Shown here piece after piece: positions 5,063-46,564 of a DNA stretch of 64,000 bases; the first letter of the stretch is position 1, and the number at the start of each line of letters is the position of its first letter. The stretch comes from Bdellovibrionales bacterium (GTDB lineage: Bacteria; Bdellovibrionota; FAC87; UBA2466), in NCBI GenBank assembly GCA_005776395.1, contig SXPJ01000026.1:1-64000 (forward strand), given 5' to 3'. Below the pieces are notes generated by a model, which had not been told where the DNA came from, searched no databases, and saw nothing but the letters and a program-made list of their open reading frames with translations. The translations under genes were made by a program, and so were the position numbers.

Positions 5063-6398
5063 TGGGATCTCCAAAACGTTCCGAGGGGGCACCTTCTTGA
5101 TAGAGTCCCATTGTGTGTAGCCATTTTTCAAATTCGGGTGTGGGTTTTAGCTGATACATTTTGCGAAGTGATGCGACATCGTGAAAGCTCGTGTCTTGAT
5201 AGCTCAACATGATGTCGTCATTTTGAGCGAGGCCCATAAAGTAGTTTGAACCCGCAAGAGTCAAAAGCATCGTCGCGACTTCGTGGTCGTTTTGATCAAT
5301 TTCAGCATGTGTTGTATAGCAGGGAGCCATGCCCATGGGTAAACCCATTAACTTAGCCATACAGAGATCTTCCAGATTTGCCCGAATCATTTGTTTCCCG
5401 TCGTACAAAGTTTCTGGGCCAATGAAACCCGAGACATTGTTTACCATATAAGGATTAAAGAGTCGCGCCAGTCCATAAGTGCGCGCTTCTAGTGTCACTT
5501 GATCGACTCCTTGGTGACTCTCTAAGGAAAGTTCGGAGCCTTGGCCGGTTTCAAAGTAAAGAACATTGGGCCAGGTAGGATGAGTTGCATTGCCGAGAGC
5601 TAGAGCCTCTTTGAGCATTGAGATATTGATTCCAAAATGTTTATTCGTTGCTTCGTTTCCGGCTAGGCTTTGAAATAAGATATCTATCGGAGCGCCTTTT
5701 TTAAGTGCTTCCATTTGAGTGGTTAAATGGGAAAGGACACAATTTACCGTTGGAATTTGGTGGCGTTCAATAAGTTCTCTGAGAGCTTCTGCAATTCGAG
5801 TAACATTTTCGACGCTATCTAAGGCAGGATTCACACCGATAATACAATCACCCGAACCATAGGATAGACCTTCTAGAGCGAGTGCTAATATCCCTGCGAT
5901 TGAATCTGTAGGATGGTTGGGCTGCAATCTTGAAGAGAGAGTGCCCGGAAGGCCGATGGTTGTTTTTGCTTGAGTCGTGTAGCGTAGTTTCTGAGAAATA
6001 AAAACTAAGTCCATATTGGCACAAATCTTTACGACCGCTGCTACCATTTCTGGAGTAAAACCTTGCTGAACTTCTTGGATTTTGGGTGCAGTCTCTCGAA
6101 GTAAAAATTCTCGAAAGTCAGATACAGTCCAATTTTTGACGAGTCGTAGAGAGTTTTGATCAATATTATCGATTGCGGCACGAGTAACTTCGCAGGACTC
6201 ATAGGAAACAGCAGGGTTCTCAAAAAATGTATCTAAAGTAAGTTCGGATAACAGGCTTTGGGCTGCGACCCGTTCTAATTCGGTATCTGCAGCTAGACCG
6301 ATGCTTTGATCTCCTGAGCGTAATTCATTCGCCTTGCCCATCAGGAGGTTAAGGTTTTTGAACTGATAGGTAGTATTTCTTAGTTTAATTGAATACAA
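5049..6398 (-). CDS. eutB: Ethanolamine ammonia-lyase large subunit EutB
   Basis: A 449-residue TIM-barrel catalytic subunit, nearly the length of E. coli EutB (453). Recognisable stretches are LMGKANELRSGDQSIGLAA, LRYTTQAKTTIGLPGTLSSR, QPNHPTDS, GLSYGSGDCIIGVNP, FETGQGSELSLESH and MLTLAGSNYFMGLA. It binds ethanolamine and, with EutC, adenosylcobalamin. Translation begins at a TTG with AAGGAA seven to eight bases before it; no better start lies nearby. It is first in the eutB-eutC-eutA operon. No microcompartment shell gene, EutR or aldehyde dehydrogenase is adjacent, so the acetaldehyde must be handled elsewhere; the aldehyde dehydrogenase at 21040 is one candidate, by inference only. Confidence 0.93.
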   Translation of the reverse strand: MYSIKLRNTTYQFKNLNLLMGKANELRSGDQSIGLAADTELERVAAQSLLSELTLDTFFENPAVSYESCEVTRAAIDNIDQNSLRLVKNWTVSDFREFLLRETAPKIQEVQQGFTPEMVAAVVKICANMDLVFISQKLRYTTQAKTTIGLPGTLSSRLQPNHPTDSIAGILALALEGLSYGSGDCIIGVNPALDSVENVTRIAEALRELIERHQIPTVNCVLSHLTTQMEALKKGAPIDILFQSLAGNEATNKHFGINISMLKEALALGNATHPTWPNVLYFETGQGSELSLESHQGVDQVTLEARTYGLARLFNPYMVNNVSGFIGPETLYDGKQMIRANLEDLCMAKLMGLPMGMAPCYTTHAEIDQNDHEVATMLLTLAGSNYFMGLAQNDDIMLSYQDTSFHDVASLRKMYQLKPTPEFEKWLHTMGLYQEGAPSERFGDPSVFA

Positions 6399-6491
6399 AA
6401 TGATTTCCTTATGAGTAGAGGAATATCCGTTAGAATTTGAATTGTGAAGCAGAATTGTGCAAATTTTCCATGAAAGGAGTCATTGATAAAC

Positions 6492-6635
6492 ATGAATACT
6501 AAAAAGAAAACTGATGCTGTTCGGAGGTCCCATAACTTTCGGAAAGCTTCTTGAAGCCATTCGGTTGAGAGAAGAGATGACCCAGCCCAAATTTGCTAAA
6601 TTTCTAAAAATTTCTAAATCACGATCAAGCAGGCT
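6492..6635 (+). pseudogene. XRE-family antitoxin-like regulator, frameshifted and truncated
   Basis: An ATG at 6492 with GGAG about 12 bases upstream starts MNTKKKTDAV and soon runs into a stop. The downstream frame, beginning inside codon 12, continues GGPITFGKLLEAIRLREEMT and then QPKFAKFLKISKS. This is the first half of a Cro/C1-type helix-turn-helix as found in HigA-like antitoxins. One frameshift near 6520 restores a continuous protein. The match ends at about 6625, where the recognition helix should follow, and the sequence passes into an unrelated mosaic segment. The gene is thus both frameshifted and cut. Confidence 0.55.
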
Positions 6636-6946
6636 TAAGACTCAAAGTCGATGTAAAAGCTGCTTAATCGCGCCAACGCGTCCGCATCTAGCCTTGACCT
6701 TTTGGTAGTGTAAAGCAGTTTCTCGTAAAACGTTCGGACCCCTCGCGGGCCTTGACCGCCCACCATAGTGGCAGCCAAGTGGGCCAGGTATTTTGGTTGA
6801 CTCGGGCCTAACGAACGCAAAAGGCGCCATACCGAGTGTTCTTGGGCATGGGTTAAGGATCCATTTTGTTGTGTTCGGCCGCGGTTAAATAAAAAGCCCA
6901 TTCCTTGGTTGGGAACAAATGAGGGGGGGACAAACTCATCATTCAC
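6635..6946 (-). pseudogene. Mosaic ORF containing a fragment of the NTF2-like gene
   Basis: A 103-codon minus-strand frame without a recognisable domain. Its middle, TMVGGQGPRGVRTFYEK, is encoded by a 54-base segment identical to part of the NTF2-like gene at 8374-8904; the flanking residues are unrelated. A further 19 bases (6808-6826) match a site upstream of that gene. The ORF therefore appears to be assembled from pieces by recombination or deletion, and I doubt it is a functional gene. The 3' end abuts the broken XRE gene on the other strand. Confidence 0.4.
6718..6771. repeat. 54-bp direct repeat, copy 1
   Basis: These 54 bases, beginning GTTTCTCGTAAAACGTTCGG, are identical to 8724-8777, where they are internal to the NTF2-like gene. 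Perfect identity implies recent duplication or conversion. Confidence 0.85.
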
Positions 6947-7091
6947 CCAAACGTAGCTGCTCTTTTCTATGCGTCCACTTTTTTGAGGAAGATCATAGAT
7001 CGTTCATAACTCTTATACGTTTGCTTAAGTTTTTCGCCAATTTACTTTTCCTCCCCCCTTCCCTACCGCAACACCGGTCCTGCCTCCTGAA

Positions 7092-8285
7092 CTACAAAAG
7101 CTTAGCGTACCCAATCGAACGCATTCGATCATCGATTGTCATATCTTTAGTTCCCATATGAACAAACAAAACTTTGGCGTTATGGTAGTTCTTTAAAAAA
7201 CTAATGGCCGATTGGGTTGCACTGCGATTAGGGGTTTCCTCTATCGATGGAATAATTCCTAATGTTCCCTTACCATTGGTGAAGGCAATGGGGACAAAAG
7301 CTCCCCCTCTATTCCGAAACTGAAATTGTCTGCAGCGTAACTCAGGTCGATAGTGAAACTGACTTCTTAGTTCTGAGTAAAGAAAACGAGTCAGATCAGT
7401 TAAGAGATCGTATCGACCTCCATTTAAAAAAGTTGCCTCCCCTTGATCCTCTAACCAAATCACTGGCCTTTTCTCATTTCCTTCAGTCGGGATTACCCTT
7501 AAAAGATACATCGACTCAAAAGCATCAATCAGTTTGCGGAGAGTAGGAATTGAAATACGGCTTTTTCGAGAAAGCTCTGCCAATCGAACCGGTTCTCCTT
7601 GAGTTTTTGCTACCAAAGTAAAAAGGGTTTTTAGGGTTCGATAACTTAACGATGTTTGAACAAGTAAACGAAGGTCTCGTTCCAAAATCGTTCCAAGTTG
7701 TGTCTCAAAACGTTGAATCCGTATGGCTGAATTTCTAATGGCAAAAATGCCAGGGAGTCCACCACTTTCCAAACAACTATCAAACGCATTAGAGACAGCT
7801 TCAATACGTTGCTTTAACTCGACCCGAATACTTTTGGATTGAAGAAGCCGTGGCAGGGATGCGCTTAGGGAAATCCCGTGTCGCTCAGCAAAATCCATGG
7901 GTAGAAGTTCCCAAGCTATCATTCGACCTGTCAATGATTCGCGAATAGCCTTCCTGCTGGAAAATCGAACCGATCCCGTCAAAAGATACTGCCCTGGCTT
8001 TTTATCCCGCCTAACCTTATCTTTAAGTGCTGGAAATAGGTTTGGAGCCAACTGACACTCATCTATCACCAAAGGATAGGCTGAATTCGAAAATAGAAAA
8101 GCTTCAGGTGTTTCAATGGCTCTTTCAAGAACAGCAGAGTTGTCTAAAGTTAGGTATTTTTCTGCTAGAATTTCAGCAAGAGTAGTCTTCCCGACTTGCC
8201 TGTGACCAAAGATACCTACAATTGGAGAAAAGGATAAAGATTTTTTTATTATTTGAGTAATGTGCCTACGGCGTAAATGTACCAT
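7092..8285 (-). CDS. AAA_14/DUF4143 family ATPase
   Basis: A 397-residue P-loop protein. Walker A is GHRQVGKTT (about residues 26-34), Walker B is YPLVIDECQ, and the sensor-like segment is GQYLLTGSVRF. The second half has a winged-helix-like stretch (LAELSRKSRISIPTLRKLID) and a C-terminal region with nuclease-like character (ELRCRQFQFRNRGGAFVPI), as usual for AAA_14 plus DUF4143 proteins. The cellular role of this family is not settled. It lies alone in a recombined accessory segment. A second member is at 13751, diverged enough that the two are not a recent duplication. Confidence 0.8.
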   Translation of the reverse strand: MVHLRRRHITQIIKKSLSFSPIVGIFGHRQVGKTTLAEILAEKYLTLDNSAVLERAIETPEAFLFSNSAYPLVIDECQLAPNLFPALKDKVRRDKKPGQYLLTGSVRFSSRKAIRESLTGRMIAWELLPMDFAERHGISLSASLPRLLQSKSIRVELKQRIEAVSNAFDSCLESGGLPGIFAIRNSAIRIQRFETQLGTILERDLRLLVQTSLSYRTLKTLFTLVAKTQGEPVRLAELSRKSRISIPTLRKLIDAFESMYLLRVIPTEGNEKRPVIWLEDQGEATFLNGGRYDLLTDLTRFLYSELRSQFHYRPELRCRQFQFRNRGGAFVPIAFTNGKGTLGIIPSIEETPNRSATQSAISFLKNYHNAKVLFVHMGTKDMTIDDRMRSIGYAKLL

Positions 8286-8373
8286 AACTCTATCATGACA
8301 TATTTCTGTAAATTCGCAAAATAGGGTTTCTGTTTTTACAGCAATATGGAAGGAGAAGCCATAGTCTTATACG

Positions 8374-8904
8374 TTAGCCCTCATTGAAGAACGGGTCCGG
8401 CAATGCTGGATTTCTCAGTTTTGCCGCGGCACCTGCGCCGGTGACCGGGAGCCCCTTCGGATCGAGGAGGCCGATCTGTACGAGCACACTCGCCTGATCC
8501 CACACGATGTGCTCGTAAGCAACCTTGTCATTTTCGATCCCGACGATCACCACGAATATCGCTTCGACCCGTTTCCCGGTGGGCTCGACTCCTGGCAGCA
8601 TCCAATCCATTGTGCTGGTGTGCGTGAACGAGATGATGAGTTCATCAATGAGCCGTTCCTCGCTGTAAGTACGCGACACCGTTTCAAATGTGACGTCAGG
8701 CGGAAAGAACTGCCCGACCAAACGTTTCTCGTAAAACGTTCGGACCCCTCGCGGGCCTTGACCGCCCACCATAGTGGGTACGTTCACAAGATGCGGATTC
8801 GACGCCATAGTGGCAAGAGTCTGGTCGAGATCGCCGGCCAATTCCGCCTGCATATGAGCATTGAAGATCGCATCGAGTTTCGCTTGTAAATACGGATTAA
8901 CCAT
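8374..8904 (-). CDS. NTF2/SnoaL-like domain protein, probably transferred
   Basis: A 176-residue protein with the pattern of SnoaL-like/NTF2-fold enzymes: an N-terminal helix (LQAKLDAIFNAHMQAELAG), TMVGGQGPRGVRTFYEKRLV, ELIISFTHTSTMDWMLPGVE and AYEHIVWDQASVLVQIGLL. No specific activity can be assigned. Codon use is clearly richer in G and C than its neighbours (for example around 8400-8470 and 8580-8620), which indicates horizontal acquisition. It contains the 54-base segment also found at 6718-6771, and an attC-like palindrome lies 40 bases beyond its start. NTF2-fold proteins are common cargo of integron cassettes, so a cassette origin is plausible. Confidence 0.75.
   Translation of the reverse strand: MVNPYLQAKLDAIFNAHMQAELAGDLDQTLATMASNPHLVNVPTMVGGQGPRGVRTFYEKRLVGQFFPPDVTFETVSRTYSEERLIDELIISFTHTSTMDWMLPGVEPTGKRVEAIFVVIVGIENDKVAYEHIVWDQASVLVQIGLLDPKGLPVTGAGAAAKLRNPALPDPFFNEG
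8724..8777. repeat. 54-bp direct repeat, copy 2 (within NTF2-like gene)
   Basis: Identical to 6718-6771. Here the segment is in frame within an intact gene, so this copy is probably the original. Confidence 0.85.
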
Positions 8905-8944
8905 GCTGTCTACTCTTGTATATAGACTTAGTTATTCACTATAA

Positions 8945-9026
8945 CTAACGAACGCAAAAGGCGTTTCCTATATTTATGATTTTCCGCAGTTAAATTTCTA
9001 GCAGCTTTTTATAGGGGTGTCGTTAG
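8945..9026. other. attC-like imperfect palindrome
   Basis: The 82-base segment begins CTAACGAACGCAAAAGGCG and ends TCGTTAG followed by AT. The outer 7 bases (CTAACGA/TCGTTAG) are perfectly complementary and an inner CCTATA/TATAGG pair is also present. The right core GTTAGAT fits the integron consensus GTTRRRY; the left core is close to RYYYAAC but with one mismatch. Length suits an attC site. The first 19 bases also occur at 6808-6826, where the core is a perfect GCCTAAC. No integrase gene of the IntI type is in the window. Confidence 0.3.
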
Positions 9027-9189
9027 ATTTCTTTAGCTATAGCTCCTTTCTGTTCTGTAACACAAAAATCTTTTCCTAAGATGAGCCTTGCACTTACCGT
9101 TCTAGACTGGGGATTCCTTGATCAAGGGCTCATAATCTAGTCCCTTTTCTGATATCGGTCATAACTTAGTAAGATATTACGCGCAAAGG

Positions 9190-9564
9190 TCATGGCGAGA
9201 TCCTACTAAACTCCCGATAGTTGACCCCATACTCATTCACTAAATCGGGAATCTCGAAATGTTGCGCAAGGAATTTAAAATTCAAAATAGTTTCGTCAAT
9301 ATCCCCATGTTCCGAAACGCGGATTTTATTCGGGTTACTTCCGAAATACCCATTTACTACCAATTCATATTCTCGAGCTTTTCCTCCCGGGGTAAAATCT
9401 AGTGACGGTCTTACGCGCACGAATTTTCGCTCAGCCACATCACGAACGAGTTGGTTATCCGAAAGCCGATTAGGACCATGACAACCCTCGTTGTTCACAA
9501 TCTTCGGAATTCCTTTTACAGGATCAAGTAGCAGGTGCGCCTTATCATCGAAAGTTTTCAGCAC
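9190..9564 (-). CDS. Unknown protein, probably N-terminally truncated
   Basis: A 124-codon frame that I do not recognise (NNEGCHGPNRLSDNQLVRD, then EYELVVNGYFGSNPNKIRVS). The same frame stays open without ATG up to about 9685 and that extension also looks like protein (LTLVYKGESEWLTSDGKTYS), so the real gene was probably longer and has lost its 5' end. The start drawn here is the first possible one and has no convincing ribosome site. The gene may be a relic. It lies between the attC-like site and the 45-base repeat. Confidence 0.35.
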   Translation of the reverse strand: MLKTFDDKAHLLLDPVKGIPKIVNNEGCHGPNRLSDNQLVRDVAERKFVRVRPSLDFTPGGKAREYELVVNGYFGSNPNKIRVSEHGDIDETILNFKFLAQHFEIPDLVNEYGVNYREFSRISP

Positions 9565-9827
9565 CGGACTGATACGAATCTGAATGTGGTGAGGATAGGT
9601 CAGAAGGGAATAGGTTTTGCCATCCGAGGTAAGCCATTCCGATTCCCCTTTGTATACAAGAGTTAGATTGCAAAGAGGTGGCCATTACCCAATTTCTAAG
9701 CAAGGCAGAAAATTACGATTACTCTTGCGGTATTCACCAAGAATGACAAGGCTTGCGAATTGTCAAAACACTAAATGAGTGTAAAATTTTCATGAAAGAA
9801 TTCGGCCCTCTTATGACTCCAACTTTG

Positions 9828-9872
9828 CATTTCTGGACTCTGTTGCGGAATTCCCTGGAAATTAAGCTTTAA
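9828..9872 (+). repeat. 45-bp repeat, copy 1
   Basis: A 45-base segment with core TTGCGGAATT and CCTGGAAATTAAGCTTTAA, matching 13688-13732 at 42 of 45 positions. Copy 2 ends 18 bases before the start of a DUF4143 ATPase gene. Copy 1 is followed by ATGAAT and a 10-codon ORF that stops, so it may be the preserved leader of a lost gene. Confidence 0.7.
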
Positions 9873-9964
9873 TATCCTAGATATGAATACTTTAAGAATA
9901 CTGATTATGGTTTAAATATTGCTATTGCATAGATTTGGGTAAGGGGCTGAATCTAGGAAAAGTA

Positions 9965-11770
9965 ATGACACGTCTGTTCTTCTCTTTTTTTGTTTTCTTA
10001 TTTATTTTCATTACCCTTCCGCCTGTTTTTGCAGAGAGAAATCCTCCTCCTCTTCAAAGTTCTCCAGAATATACAAATTTCCTGAAAGAGAGGTATGGAT
10101 TTCTCCCTTCTGATATTACCTGGGGAGAAAAGTACCCTGTCATTCTTAGAGGTGGAGATGAAGCTAGTTTTTCTCCAAAAGCAAATTCAGAATCCATAAG
10201 AAAAAATTCCGAACATTACGATTTAATTATAGTAGGAGGTGGGCTTTCAGGATTAACAAGTGCTAAATATGCTACTGAAAAAGGTCTAAAAGTATTAGTT
10301 CTTGAAAAAGAAAATCAACCTGGGGGATTAGCTGTTGGAAGTTCAAGTTCAGGCACTATCCGTTACGGACGTGGAGGGGCTTATTTTACAGATGCTTCAG
10401 GTAAAGCTGAAGAGATCTTTAAAGATCTAGGAATTCATGAAGGCTCTAAGGAATTTAAAATTCCCTACCCTATTGATAGTTACTTGTGGAATGGGAAATA
10501 TTATCGTGGATTATGGGAAAGTGATTCAGCTATGCGAAAACTACCTGCAAGTTTTTCTGCCTTTCGTTATGTCTTAAAAGATCTCGATAATAAAGGGTTG
10601 ATTCCAGTACAGCCTTTTGAGAATCATCCTGCAACTCAAAAATTAGACTCTCTAACTTTTGAACAATGGGTTAATTCAGTGCCTAAGCAATTAGAGACTT
10701 TAGCTAAGAACGGCGATTGGAATGCCAAACAGATCTTGGAACGTTTCAAGAAAGATTCTAAGGTGGACCCCTTAAATCCAATGAAAGAAGTACTAGGGCT
10801 TTTACAGTTATATGGGCGATCTGCTTTAGGAGATCATCCCAATAAAGTTTCAGCAGCAGCCTTTATTAATTTTTATATTTCCGAGATTTCAGAGAGATTA
10901 ACAGGAAGTTTAGGAACAGGGATCATTACTGAGAAACTTTTAAAACAGCTTGAAAACAGAAGCAACCTCACGCTTAAAACAAATTCTCCAGTAGCTAAAA
11001 TTATTGATAGCACCAATGGAGTGGAGGTTTTTTATAGAAGTGGAGGAGAGATTCATCAAGTTAAAGCTTCCAATCTTGTCTTTGCAGCAGAATTAAAACT
11101 AGCTCCTAAGTTAATTGAAAATTTTGAGCGTACAGCCCCCAAACATGTTAAAGCTCTAGAGAAACTAGATTATCGTAATTATTTAGTAGTGAATGTTCAT
11201 GTTCAAGGCCATCCCTGGAAAGAGGCTTTCGATTTATGGGTAAGAAATGATAGCACTTATTCCAAAGATAAAATTACAGATATTATAGACGGTCGTTATG
11301 TTGAGTTTGAGGGGAAACATCTTGTTCGTACCGATGATAAAGGGGTCTTGACTGTTTACCTTCCTATTTCGGAAGAAAAAACAGGAAAAGGTTTTACAAA
11401 TAAAGAAACTGTACAACTAGCTGAAGAAGCTGTTCGACAAATGTTAGATTCTCTAAACCCAATCCTAGCAAAAAACCATCAACAACCTATTCAAGTTCTT
11501 GCAGTTGAAGCCAATCGATGGCCTTATTCTATCCATGTTGCAGCTCCAGGCCATTTTAATGAGAGAGTCAAAGTTTTATCTACCCCTGTAGGGAACATCT
11601 ACTTTGCACAAAACAATCTAGGAACCCCCTCTGTTGAAGAGGCTCTTTATCGAGGATGGAAAAGTATCGAAGATTTAGTTAGTGCTTCAAAATTTCATAA
11701 GCAGCAACAACAAAATCGTAGCTCTTGCCATTTCCTAATGAAAAAGTTGGAAAACAGTCCACATCTCTAA
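9965..11770 (+). CDS. Exported FAD-dependent amine oxidase-like oxidoreductase
   Basis: A 601-residue flavoprotein with a clear signal peptide (TRLFFSFFVFLFIFITLPPVFA). The dinucleotide-binding motif follows at about residue 75: DLIIVGGGLSGLTSAKYATE, then VLVLEKENQPGGLA. Near the C-terminus, NIYFAQNNLGTPSVEEALYRG corresponds to the second FAD-contacting motif of the amine-oxidase family. Substrate is unknown; relatives oxidise amines or desaturate isoprenoids. The frame also opens at a TTG at 9935, but the ATG at 9965 has AGGA seven bases upstream and places the signal peptide correctly. It is likely transcribed alone. Export of an FAD enzyme suggests Tat-like or post-export flavin loading; no twin-arginine motif is seen. 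Confidence 0.8.
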   Translation: MTRLFFSFFVFLFIFITLPPVFAERNPPPLQSSPEYTNFLKERYGFLPSDITWGEKYPVILRGGDEASFSPKANSESIRKNSEHYDLIIVGGGLSGLTSAKYATEKGLKVLVLEKENQPGGLAVGSSSSGTIRYGRGGAYFTDASGKAEEIFKDLGIHEGSKEFKIPYPIDSYLWNGKYYRGLWESDSAMRKLPASFSAFRYVLKDLDNKGLIPVQPFENHPATQKLDSLTFEQWVNSVPKQLETLAKNGDWNAKQILERFKKDSKVDPLNPMKEVLGLLQLYGRSALGDHPNKVSAAAFINFYISEISERLTGSLGTGIITEKLLKQLENRSNLTLKTNSPVAKIIDSTNGVEVFYRSGGEIHQVKASNLVFAAELKLAPKLIENFERTAPKHVKALEKLDYRNYLVVNVHVQGHPWKEAFDLWVRNDSTYSKDKITDIIDGRYVEFEGKHLVRTDDKGVLTVYLPISEEKTGKGFTNKETVQLAEEAVRQMLDSLNPILAKNHQQPIQVLAVEANRWPYSIHVAAPGHFNERVKVLSTPVGNIYFAQNNLGTPSVEEALYRGWKSIEDLVSASKFHKQQQQNRSSCHFLMKKLENSPHL

Positions 11771-13472: not shown

Positions 13473-13687
13473 TATCGTATTTTATCGGAATAGATAAGAG
13501 AAGGGAATGAAGAATCTTCCTGATTTTTAGTCGTACATTCCAGAACTAGGGTTTGTAGTTCTTGTTCAAGTCAGGCTCTTTACAGCGTTGGAAACACACG
13601 TTACTACAAGATAATTCGTTGAAATATGAAAGAATTCTGTTTGTCGTCGCAACACGAATAAAAAAATAAAAATTAGAATAAGAATTA

Positions 13688-13732
13688 CATTTCGGGACTC
13701 TATTGCGGAATTTCCTGGAAATTAAGCTTTAA
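13688..13732 (+). repeat. 45-bp repeat, copy 2, upstream of DUF4143 ATPase
   Basis: Matches 9828-9872 at 42 of 45 positions. It ends 18 bases before the ATG of the downstream ATPase, so it may contain its promoter or an operator. The remaining upstream gap (13473-13687) shows nothing else. Confidence 0.7.
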
Positions 13733-13750: not shown

Positions 13751-14896
13751 ATGAATTACATTGCCAGACTGCTACCCGTGGCGCAACAGCTGAAGAGACG
13801 GAGTGTCCTCCTCCTGGGTCCGAGGCGAACGGGAAAAAGCAGTCTAATTCGGAATGAGATTCGAGCCGATCGTGTTTTTAATCTTCTGCAAGTAGACACC
13901 TATCGCGATATTATTTCTAGACCCAGTCTCATTCGCGAAAGCGCGAAACGAGGGGATCTCATTGTTATCGATGAAATTCAAAAACTGCCCAATCTTATGG
14001 ATGAAGTGCATCTTATGATCGAGGAATACGGGGTTCGATTTCTATTAACTGGCAGCAGCGCTAGAAAGCTACGAAGGACCCACACCTCTTTAATGGCAGG
14101 TCGGGCAAAGACACTACACCTTATGCCATTTTCTCATGCCGAACTCTCTCATTTTGATTTGAGCCGAAGATTAGCATTCGGATCCCTCCCGCCTGTCTGG
14201 CTTTCGGAAGAGCCCTGGGATGAACTTTCAACTTACGTGGGTGAATACCTACGGGATGAGATTCAAGCCGAGGCATTGTCTCGCAACATAGAAGGTTTTT
14301 CGAGATTTCTTACTCATGCCGCCGCCACAAACACAGAAATCATCAATTTTGAATCGGTGGCAAGTGATGCTCAAGTGCCAGCTCGTACGGTGCGTGAGTA
14401 TTATTCAGTCTTGGTAGACACTCTTCTGGGAACATTACTGGAACCTCTTGCAAAGAAAAAAGGCAACACACGCAAGGCCGTTGCAAAATCGAAGTTTTAT
14501 TTTTTTGATACTGGAGTAGCGAACGCTATTTTAAGAAGAAAAATCCTACCAGAAGCAAGCAATGAATTCGGAAAGGCCTTTGAACATTTCATCTTCCAAG
14601 AACTATTTACTTATCGTTGCTATAAAAAAACTGACGGCACATTAAATTTCTGGGCAATCCACCAGGGACCAGAAGTGGATTTTGTTCTGGATGGAGAAAT
14701 AGCGGTGGAAGTTAAGGCAACTCAACTTGCAAGCGAGAAACATTTTCGTGGACTAATGGCGTTCGCAGATGAACACAAGTTAAAGCGTCTTATCGTTGTT
14801 AGCAGAGATCAACGATATCGAAAGGTGGGGAAAATTGAAGTTTACCCCTTTGCCCACTTTTTAAATGATCTTTGGAACGATAAAATTTGGAAGTAA
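13751..14896 (+). CDS. AAA_14/DUF4143 family ATPase
   Basis: A 381-residue P-loop ATPase. Walker A is LLGPRRTGKSS (about residues 21-31), Walker B is DLIVIDEIQKLP, and the following strand ends in FLLTGSSARKLR, all standard for AAA_14. The second half is the DUF4143 region, ending with the nuclease-like core HQGPEVDFVLDGEIAVEVKA (Asp, and Glu-Val-Lys), which resembles a PD-(D/E)XK fold. Function of the family is not established. The 45-base repeat lies just upstream. The gene stands alone in an accessory region. Confidence 0.82.
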   Translation: MNYIARLLPVAQQLKRRSVLLLGPRRTGKSSLIRNEIRADRVFNLLQVDTYRDIISRPSLIRESAKRGDLIVIDEIQKLPNLMDEVHLMIEEYGVRFLLTGSSARKLRRTHTSLMAGRAKTLHLMPFSHAELSHFDLSRRLAFGSLPPVWLSEEPWDELSTYVGEYLRDEIQAEALSRNIEGFSRFLTHAAATNTEIINFESVASDAQVPARTVREYYSVLVDTLLGTLLEPLAKKKGNTRKAVAKSKFYFFDTGVANAILRRKILPEASNEFGKAFEHFIFQELFTYRCYKKTDGTLNFWAIHQGPEVDFVLDGEIAVEVKATQLASEKHFRGLMAFADEHKLKRLIVVSRDQRYRKVGKIEVYPFAHFLNDLWNDKIWK

Positions 14897-19140: not shown

Positions 19141-19294
19141 CCATTGGGGTGATTTTATGAGGGTTCATTCAAGAATTTGGATATGAAAGTGGAGCGTACA
19201 GCGACTTTCCTTGGAGCTGGCAGCACCACTTTCATATCCAAATTCTTGAATGACTCCGCTTTTTATCATGTACTGTGGCTCACCGAGAATCGCT
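19141..19294 (+). repeat. 154-bp hairpin repeat, copy 1 (upstream of alsS-like gene)
   Basis: Begins CCATTGGGGTGATTTTATG and ends TCACCGAGAATCGCT. It contains a perfect 28-base inverted repeat (19165-19192 with 19226-19253) around a 33-base loop. The loop reads AGCGTACAGCGACTTTCC and onward. A second full copy of the same length is at 46366-46519, and a partial one at 45830-45885. The outer TTCTCGGTGA at about 19073 also pairs with TCACCGAGAA. It lies 80 bases before the acetolactate synthase ATG. The rest of the 19049-19374 gap shows nothing else. Confidence 0.85.
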
Positions 19295-45676: not shown

Positions 45677-45829
45677 AAAAATCCTTTCGTTTAAACCTCA
45701 TTTTTTTTTAACAACCCCTAACCTCATAAATATCGGAAAAGATCTCTCTAATGTTTAGGAATTGTTGTGATTATTCTACTTAACGAATTAACTCACAATT
45801 AAGATGACTTAGGTGCAGCAGTTCTCGAA

Positions 45830-45885
45830 GAGCCACAGTGCATGATAAAAAGCGGAGTCATTCAAGAGTTTAAATATAAAAGTGG
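45830..45885 (-). repeat. Partial copy (56 bp) of the 154-bp hairpin repeat
   Basis: On the minus strand this matches the right part of the repeat at 19141-19294: CTTGAATGACTCCGC and TTTTTATCATGCACTGTGG, continuing as a diverged arm with about five substitutions, mostly transitions. The other arm and the loop are missing. It is a decayed copy 480 bases before the full copy at 46366. Confidence 0.65.
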
Positions 45886-45906
45886 GACTAGCAAAAAAAC
45901 AAAAAG

Positions 45907-46191
45907 CTACATTCCTTTTGAACAAACGCCCTTTTTAGGACACTCATCGATATGCCAATCGAGATCGCAGTATTCACTCTTTCCACAGGTGGAATCTTTC
46001 AAGCAGCATTTGTATTTTTTTGGGGGTGCATCAGCTTCTTTGATTGGTCTGGTTAGCGAACTTCCGGAGACAGCAGGATCATTACTGGCTCCATGATTTA
46101 CACTTTCCTTATCATCGGCTTGAGTTGTCCCCGTTAAACTGACGAAGATTGCAATGATAATGAAAAATATTAGTCCGGTCCTTGCTACCAT
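45907..46191 (-). CDS. Small exported Cys-rich protein
   Basis: A 94-residue protein with a signal peptide (RTGLIFFIIIAIFVSLTGTTQA). The last 40 residues hold six to seven Cys (KYKCCLKDSTCGKSEYCDLD, then DECPKKGVCSKG), a disulfide-knotted mini-domain. The ATG at 46191 follows GGGAGGA with five bases spacing. I recognise no family. Like the large Cys-rich protein at 12441 it points to an oxidising envelope. Confidence 0.6.
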   Translation of the reverse strand: MVARTGLIFFIIIAIFVSLTGTTQADDKESVNHGASNDPAVSGSSLTRPIKEADAPPKKYKCCLKDSTCGKSEYCDLDWHIDECPKKGVCSKGM

Positions 46192-46365
46192 CAAAATCCT
46201 CCCATTTTCTGCATTTTATTTTATTAGTTAGTTTCCCCTAAAACAAGAAGTAAAGTAGTAACCTTTTTGATTTTTTGGATTAGATAGATCATTTTCTATA
46301 CTCCAAAATTTCGACGATTGTTGTGGGAATTAATAAGCACGACTTAGCGAGTTAATACGGCTGTA

Positions 46366-46519
46366 CCATTGGGGTGATTTTATGGCAGTTCATTCAAGAA
46401 TTTGGATATGAAAGTGGGGCGTACAGCGACTTTCCTTGGAGCTGGTAGCCCCATTTTCATATCCAAATTCTTGAATGGCTCCACTTTTTATCGCGCGCTG
46501 TGACTTACCGAGAATCGCT
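46366..46519 (+). repeat. 154-bp hairpin repeat, copy 2 (upstream of dsbD-like gene)
   Basis: Same length and ends as 19141-19294 (CCATTGGGGTGATTTTATG to CCGAGAATCGCT). Arms 46390-46417 and 46451-46478 form the 28-base inverted repeat with a few mismatches, and the loop is almost identical. It ends 45 bases before the ATG of the dsbD-like gene. The rest of the 46192-46564 gap shows nothing else. Confidence 0.85.
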
Positions 46520-46564
46520 GAAAGAATTTTGCTTTTTTAGGCTGCATAGATTTAAAATAATAAA

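Follow-up and report, generated by a model that had tools for sequence, protein, structure and literature searches.

An intact SnoaL-like gene and the probable scrap of a second copy 2 kb away in a Bdellovibrionales genome

Background

The genome of a Bdellovibrionales bacterium (assembly GCA_005776395.1) carries the same 54-bp word twice, on either side of an ATPase gene, within an intact gene and within a patchwork open reading frame. How did the second of these places come by its piece of the first gene? The question was addressed in the window, here the whole 64,000-nt stretch at the start of contig SXPJ01000026.1, and in the genome from which it comes (2,758,714 bases, 106 contigs, 98% complete). 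A sequence-only reading of the window had proposed a recent event, such as the capture of an already deleted version of a cassette.

Results

Two exact repeats of common origin

The 54-bp direct repeat joins 6718-6771 (copy 1) to 8724-8777 (copy 2), both on the minus strand, and is identical at 54/54 positions. No exact direct repeat in the 64-kb window is longer; the longest repeat in any of 100 shuffles of the window under a first-order Markov model measured 20 nt (mean 16). A second repeat of 19 bp (6808-6826 and 8945-8963, minus strand) is identical at 19/19 positions. Taken alone in 64 kb it is borderline, a length of at least 19 nt being reached in 1 of the 100 shuffles; the two blocks are nevertheless colinear and in the same orientation in both copies, and the chance of a colinear 19-mer on the same side as the 54-mer is about 2e-7 for two 250-nt stretches. 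The spacing between the blocks is 36 bp in copy 1 versus 167 bp in copy 2. The genome holds no third copy of the 54-mer, and none of the 19-mer with fewer than three mismatches. Both identities are thus exact, as the sequence-only reading had given them.

All 73 compared sites are identical between the copies. The corresponding 95% upper bound on divergence, 4.0%, is optimistic since the blocks were picked as identical. Over the 54-bp segment, 22 relatives from outside (L014-L035, without the partial match L036) agree at 24-45 of the 54 positions, versus 54/54 between the copies, and this difference argues for a recent common origin of the two, as had been proposed. To judge from these sequences, the copies may either have split recently within this lineage or have stayed alike by gene conversion.

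The intact gene and its relatives

Copy 2 of the 54-bp repeat occupies nucleotides 128-181 (codons 43-61) of a gene at 8374-8904 on the minus strand. This gene is intact, as the sequence-only reading held, and encodes a SnoaL/NTF2-like protein of 176 aa that passes the curated Pfam cut-off for PF07366 (SnoaL, SnoaL-like polyketide cyclase; 33.2 versus 28.4 bits, E 5e-8). The protein has no match in NCBIfam, and sequence comparison with solved structures gave none below E 0.01, the best being AclR at 0.039.

The gene has a GC content of 0.55 versus about 0.35-0.48 in its surroundings and is horizontally acquired. Relatives are encoded in 23 of 62 candidate stretches of the genome collection, with 64-89% protein identity in the best segment, and their hosts, many of them metagenome bins, include cyanobacteria, beta-, gamma- and deltaproteobacteria, Actinomycetes and Nitrospira. 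Within the phylum of the host, 2 of 368 genomes matched, namely the host itself and one other, whose match is distant and partial (65% across some 200 bp), and a search of plasmids yielded SnoaL relatives only at less than 60% identity. Synonymous and non-synonymous codon differences number 51 and 34 from L014, 53 and 33 from L015, 51 and 36 from L016, and 58 and 46 from L018, an excess of synonymous differences such as would be expected for a gene under selection.

Cassette boundaries in the relatives

The word cassette, used in the sequence-only reading, finds support in the boundaries of the relatives. In the six pairs formed by L014-L017, 7-14 of 30 positions are identical before the motif GTTAG and 10-18 of 20 after it. 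In L014, L015 and L018 a common block starting CTAACAACAG lies 3' of the gene, 31 nt past the start of the stop codon, and similarity is lost at or just past its GCGTT region; the known anatomy of attC sites is the basis for likening this block to such a site. Hairpins stronger than in shuffled sequences were found in L014 (z -4.25) and in L017 (z -3.13), where the site lies upstream of the gene, and those in L015 and L018 (z -0.76 and -0.36) are not significant. The arrangement of an integron gene cassette, with close relatives bounded by attC or R' and set in unrelated flanks, was found in 5 of the 23 relatives, the ones examined in detail. L014, L015 and L018, from Planktothrix, Dolichospermum and a deltaproteobacterial bin, thus have both the SnoaL-like gene and a similar attC-like block, as a cassette common to several phyla.

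The integron integrase IntI scores over the cut-off of TIGR02249 in 4 of 10 genomes carrying SnoaL relatives. A search with the same model at E 1e-40 found it in 0 of 144 relatives, the genome of the host included; the controls of this search were silent, and the model is shown to work by its matches in the SnoaL-relative genomes. No IntI integrase was found in the host genome, where three tyrosine recombinases (PF00589) are encoded, none of them IntI-like; two have the look of XerC and XerD and the third that of a phage integrase.

The minus-strand end of both 19-mers of the window is GCGTTCGTTAG, as would suit the R' end of an attC site, the consensus of the R' core being GTTRRRY. In copy 1 the next two letters are GC and complete a core of GTTAGGC; upstream of copy 2 it would be, by comparison with the relatives, the R'-like end of an attC-type site. 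The folding z is about -1 at 8943-9028 and -0.1 to -0.2 at 6804-6881. A first attC scan placed the window sites within the noise, not above other parts of the window. With a stricter scan, the 12 best of 24 filter-passing candidates all fell within 6806-9028, both 19-mer sites included, and the L014 control was missed; these 12 candidates represent five places, three of them inside the coding sequence of the ATPase gene. No attC site at the window copies passed a test, whether by folding or in the two scans.

Copy 1 and the tip of a host MITE

Read on the minus strand, copy 1 consists of the 19-mer with GTTAGGC, a short leader (6792-6807), the element tip ATACCTGGCCCACTTGGCTGC (6791-6771) and the 54-bp gene piece, which is the sole coding remainder of the second gene copy; beyond it lies an antitoxin remnant on the opposite strand. 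The 14 nt that come directly after GTTAG are similar to the SnoaL cassette leaders of L014-L017, with 35/56 identities in copy 1 versus 12/56 in copy 2, in a register chosen after seeing the sequences; a score of 35/56 is equalled by 0.08% of the 14-mers of the window. Alignment of the whole leader with L014-L018 is not significant (p 0.72 for copy 1 and 0.26 for copy 2). The resemblance suggests a leader of cassette type in copy 1 and, if the signal is real, copy 1 would hold the older leader and that of copy 2 would have been altered.

The 21 nt at 6771-6791 (minus strand) are the tip of a MITE of about 246 bp, cut where the gene piece begins and overlapping it by one nucleotide (G at 6771). 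Five full copies of this element occur in the host genome (L066 on C82, L071 on C43, L072 on C72, L073 on C39 and L074 on C67). They measure about 246-250 bp, are 91-96% identical, and have inverted-repeat ends of about 40-50 nt and flanking target duplications of about 9 bp, the latter read by eye. These five thus show what is expected of a MITE, that is several short copies, terminal inverted repeats, target duplications and no transposase; copy 1 contributes the 21-nt tip only. The parental element was not found. When 20 nt of the tip were searched in 39 genomes with up to three mismatches, six places were found in the host and one three-mismatch place in each of three others, which on inspection have no further element in common with the MITE; the 38 other genomes contain no match with fewer than three mismatches. 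Since the tip abutting the 54-mer belongs to a MITE that, among the 39 genomes searched, is full-length only in this one, the deletion came after an insertion of the MITE that most probably took place in this lineage.

The mosaic open reading frame at 6635-6946 is a stitched remnant and no gene. It matches no Pfam family, and a search with the mosaic DNA gave no match. Three weak protein matches (E 3 to 10) were judged to be due to chance: that in H22 starts outside the annotated gene, that in H24 passes from one gene end into another, and H23 carries no annotation. The same verdict was reached for the one match to the stretch 8905-9934. Rfam yielded nothing relevant, with one chance match to mir-375, and four scans of viral contigs found no related locus.

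A decaying interval

The gene next to copy 1 is truncated, as the sequence-only reading had observed of this XRE gene. The HigA/XRE-like antitoxin remnant (6492-6667, plus strand) measures 176 nt versus 318 nt in its relative L039, to which it is 73% identical over the conserved part, and in comparison it has lost a small piece near its start, which shifts the frame, and a large internal one. Its HTH_31 match (E 0.077) is below the cut-off. No toxin ORF was seen beside it when the ORF list was inspected by eye, and the locus thus holds a remnant only, not an intact HigA/XRE antitoxin with its toxin partner. On the other side of copy 1 lies a solo repeat (6961-6999, plus strand) that recurs on contigs C70 and C98 with 94-95% identity and in G005 with 91%. 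This repeat of 35-39 nt also occurs in G006 with three mismatches, has no longer homology in the two related genomes and is probably the end of a mobile element. The AAA_14/DUF4143 ATPase gene (7092-8285, minus strand; relatives in G007, G043 and G052) separates the two copies. Given the antitoxin deletions, the solo repeat and the copy 1 scrap, the interval between the ATPase gene and the flanking gene that we take to be eutB is a collection of remnants decaying by deletion.

Other repeats were noted in the region. An 11-bp direct repeat, TCTTATACGTT, flanks the ATPase gene at 7011-7021 and 8365-8375; as a mark of insertion of that gene it is a weak hint only, three other 11-bp repeats being present in the same 3.5 kb and chance being possible. 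A 48-bp repeat, 92% identical, links 9825-9872 to 13685-13732, and its second copy immediately precedes a further AAA_14/DUF4143 ATPase gene, at 13751. Related palindromic repeats at 19150-19268 and 45816-46520, with long inverted arms of 53 nt and 37-78 nt, may represent a further small mobile element.

For a comparison of sister strains, this locus was found in no genome of the genus or family. When 6300-9980 was compared with 59 genomes, matches were obtained in six of them (the host's own included) and concerned nothing beyond the ATPase, one HigA relative, one distant SnoaL relative and the solo repeat. The flanking EutB protein was matched in 7 of 20 genomes (at best 52% outside its own), and the flanking oxidoreductase in 17 of 20, mostly in part, the best near-full-length match outside its own genome being 45%.

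Discussion

The best reading of the locus, to which we give a probability of about two in three, is that an acquired gene of cassette type was duplicated and that one copy decayed in place. The gene, SnoaL-like, rich in GC and of a type travelling as an integron cassette in aquatic bacteria, would have entered the lineage and been duplicated, giving two copies that pointed the same way, some 2 kb from each other. We infer the order of events and the duplication itself, the latter from identity and colinearity, and the site would be the relic of a cassette insertion. A host MITE would then have inserted into the short leader of copy 1, a first deletion joining MITE nucleotide 21 to gene nucleotide 128, and a second would have removed everything past gene nucleotide 181, leaving 54 bp; the adjoining HigA antitoxin gene bears the marks of the same deletion-type decay. 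Copy 2 would have kept its coding frame and lost its original leader and its downstream attC. Copy 1 would be without function, and copy 2 probably still makes the predicted protein.

It is unlikely, though less so than the other alternatives, that copy 1 was never a whole gene and that templated insertion patched a break in the interval from eutB to the ATPase gene with 54 nt of the SnoaL gene, 21 nt of a MITE end and about 39 nt of the solo repeat. Three short stretches whose sources lie elsewhere in the genome do fall inside 282 bp (6718-6999), and the 54-mer and the MITE tip abut with a 1-nt overlap; yet the 54- and 19-bp blocks are ordered and oriented as in the gene, copy 1 has a cassette-like leader and not a copy of that of copy 2, and the adjoining antitoxin remnant shows plain deletions. 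That the whole mosaic was made from these sources in one repair event, as a bacterial multi-patch templated insertion, seems slightly less probable still; that the two blocks keep the gene order makes it less likely than duplication and decay.

Capture by an integron of an already deleted cassette beside a full one, as the sequence-only reading envisaged, would account for a cassette-type leader and R'-like ends at both copies of a gene that is a cassette elsewhere. This proposal fared poorly: the deletion junction holds the tip of a MITE that is full-length only in this genome among the 39 searched, none of the three recombinases of the host is IntI-like, and TIGR02249 at E 1e-40 is silent in all 144 relatives although it scores over its cut-off in 4 of 10 SnoaL-relative genomes. 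Capture in deleted form is accordingly improbable, and the host-type tip in copy 1 favours decay in situ. Least probable of all, and very much so, is a misjoin of draft or metagenome-assembled flanks at the 54-bp common word. The genome is in 106 contigs and 54 bp is within the range of assembly word lengths, but even a misjoin presupposes two real copies, colinearity is seen again in the 19-mer of one flank, and the flanks of copy 2 form an intact conserved gene and are hence right, as are those of copy 1 by elimination.

The locus can be compared with known systems. The window protein is like SnoaL/NTF2-like proteins in scoring over the PF07366 cut-off, and Bal32a is one such SnoaL-like protein. 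Bal32a is described as an integron cassette protein (PMC3548836); the window protein, by contrast, matched no solved structure by sequence below E 0.01, and no molecule named Bal32a is among the seven listed. CALINs are described as clusters of attC sites without a neighbouring integrase (PMC7923331). The locus resembles integron cassettes and CALINs in its cassette-type leader after an R'-like GTTAG, in close relatives lying between attC-like sites elsewhere and in a host where no integrase was found; it differs from them in that no window attC passes a test, the gene lacks an attC of its own downstream, and there is a single gene and no array. The host element is like the bacterial MITEs used for comparison (PMC6382973, PMC5896051), being about 246 bp long with no room for a transposase and having five copies with inverted-repeat ends of about 40-50 bp and duplications of about 9 bp.

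The locus is an ordinary case of genome decay, in which the broken scrap of a second copy lies 2 kb from an intact acquired gene. Its main value is a correction of annotation, the frame at 6635-6946 being a stitched remnant. It also documents a SnoaL-like cassette that is spread over several phyla and has settled in a lineage in which the search for an integron integrase was negative, and it would be useful for following how cassettes turn into ordinary genes and how surplus copies decay.
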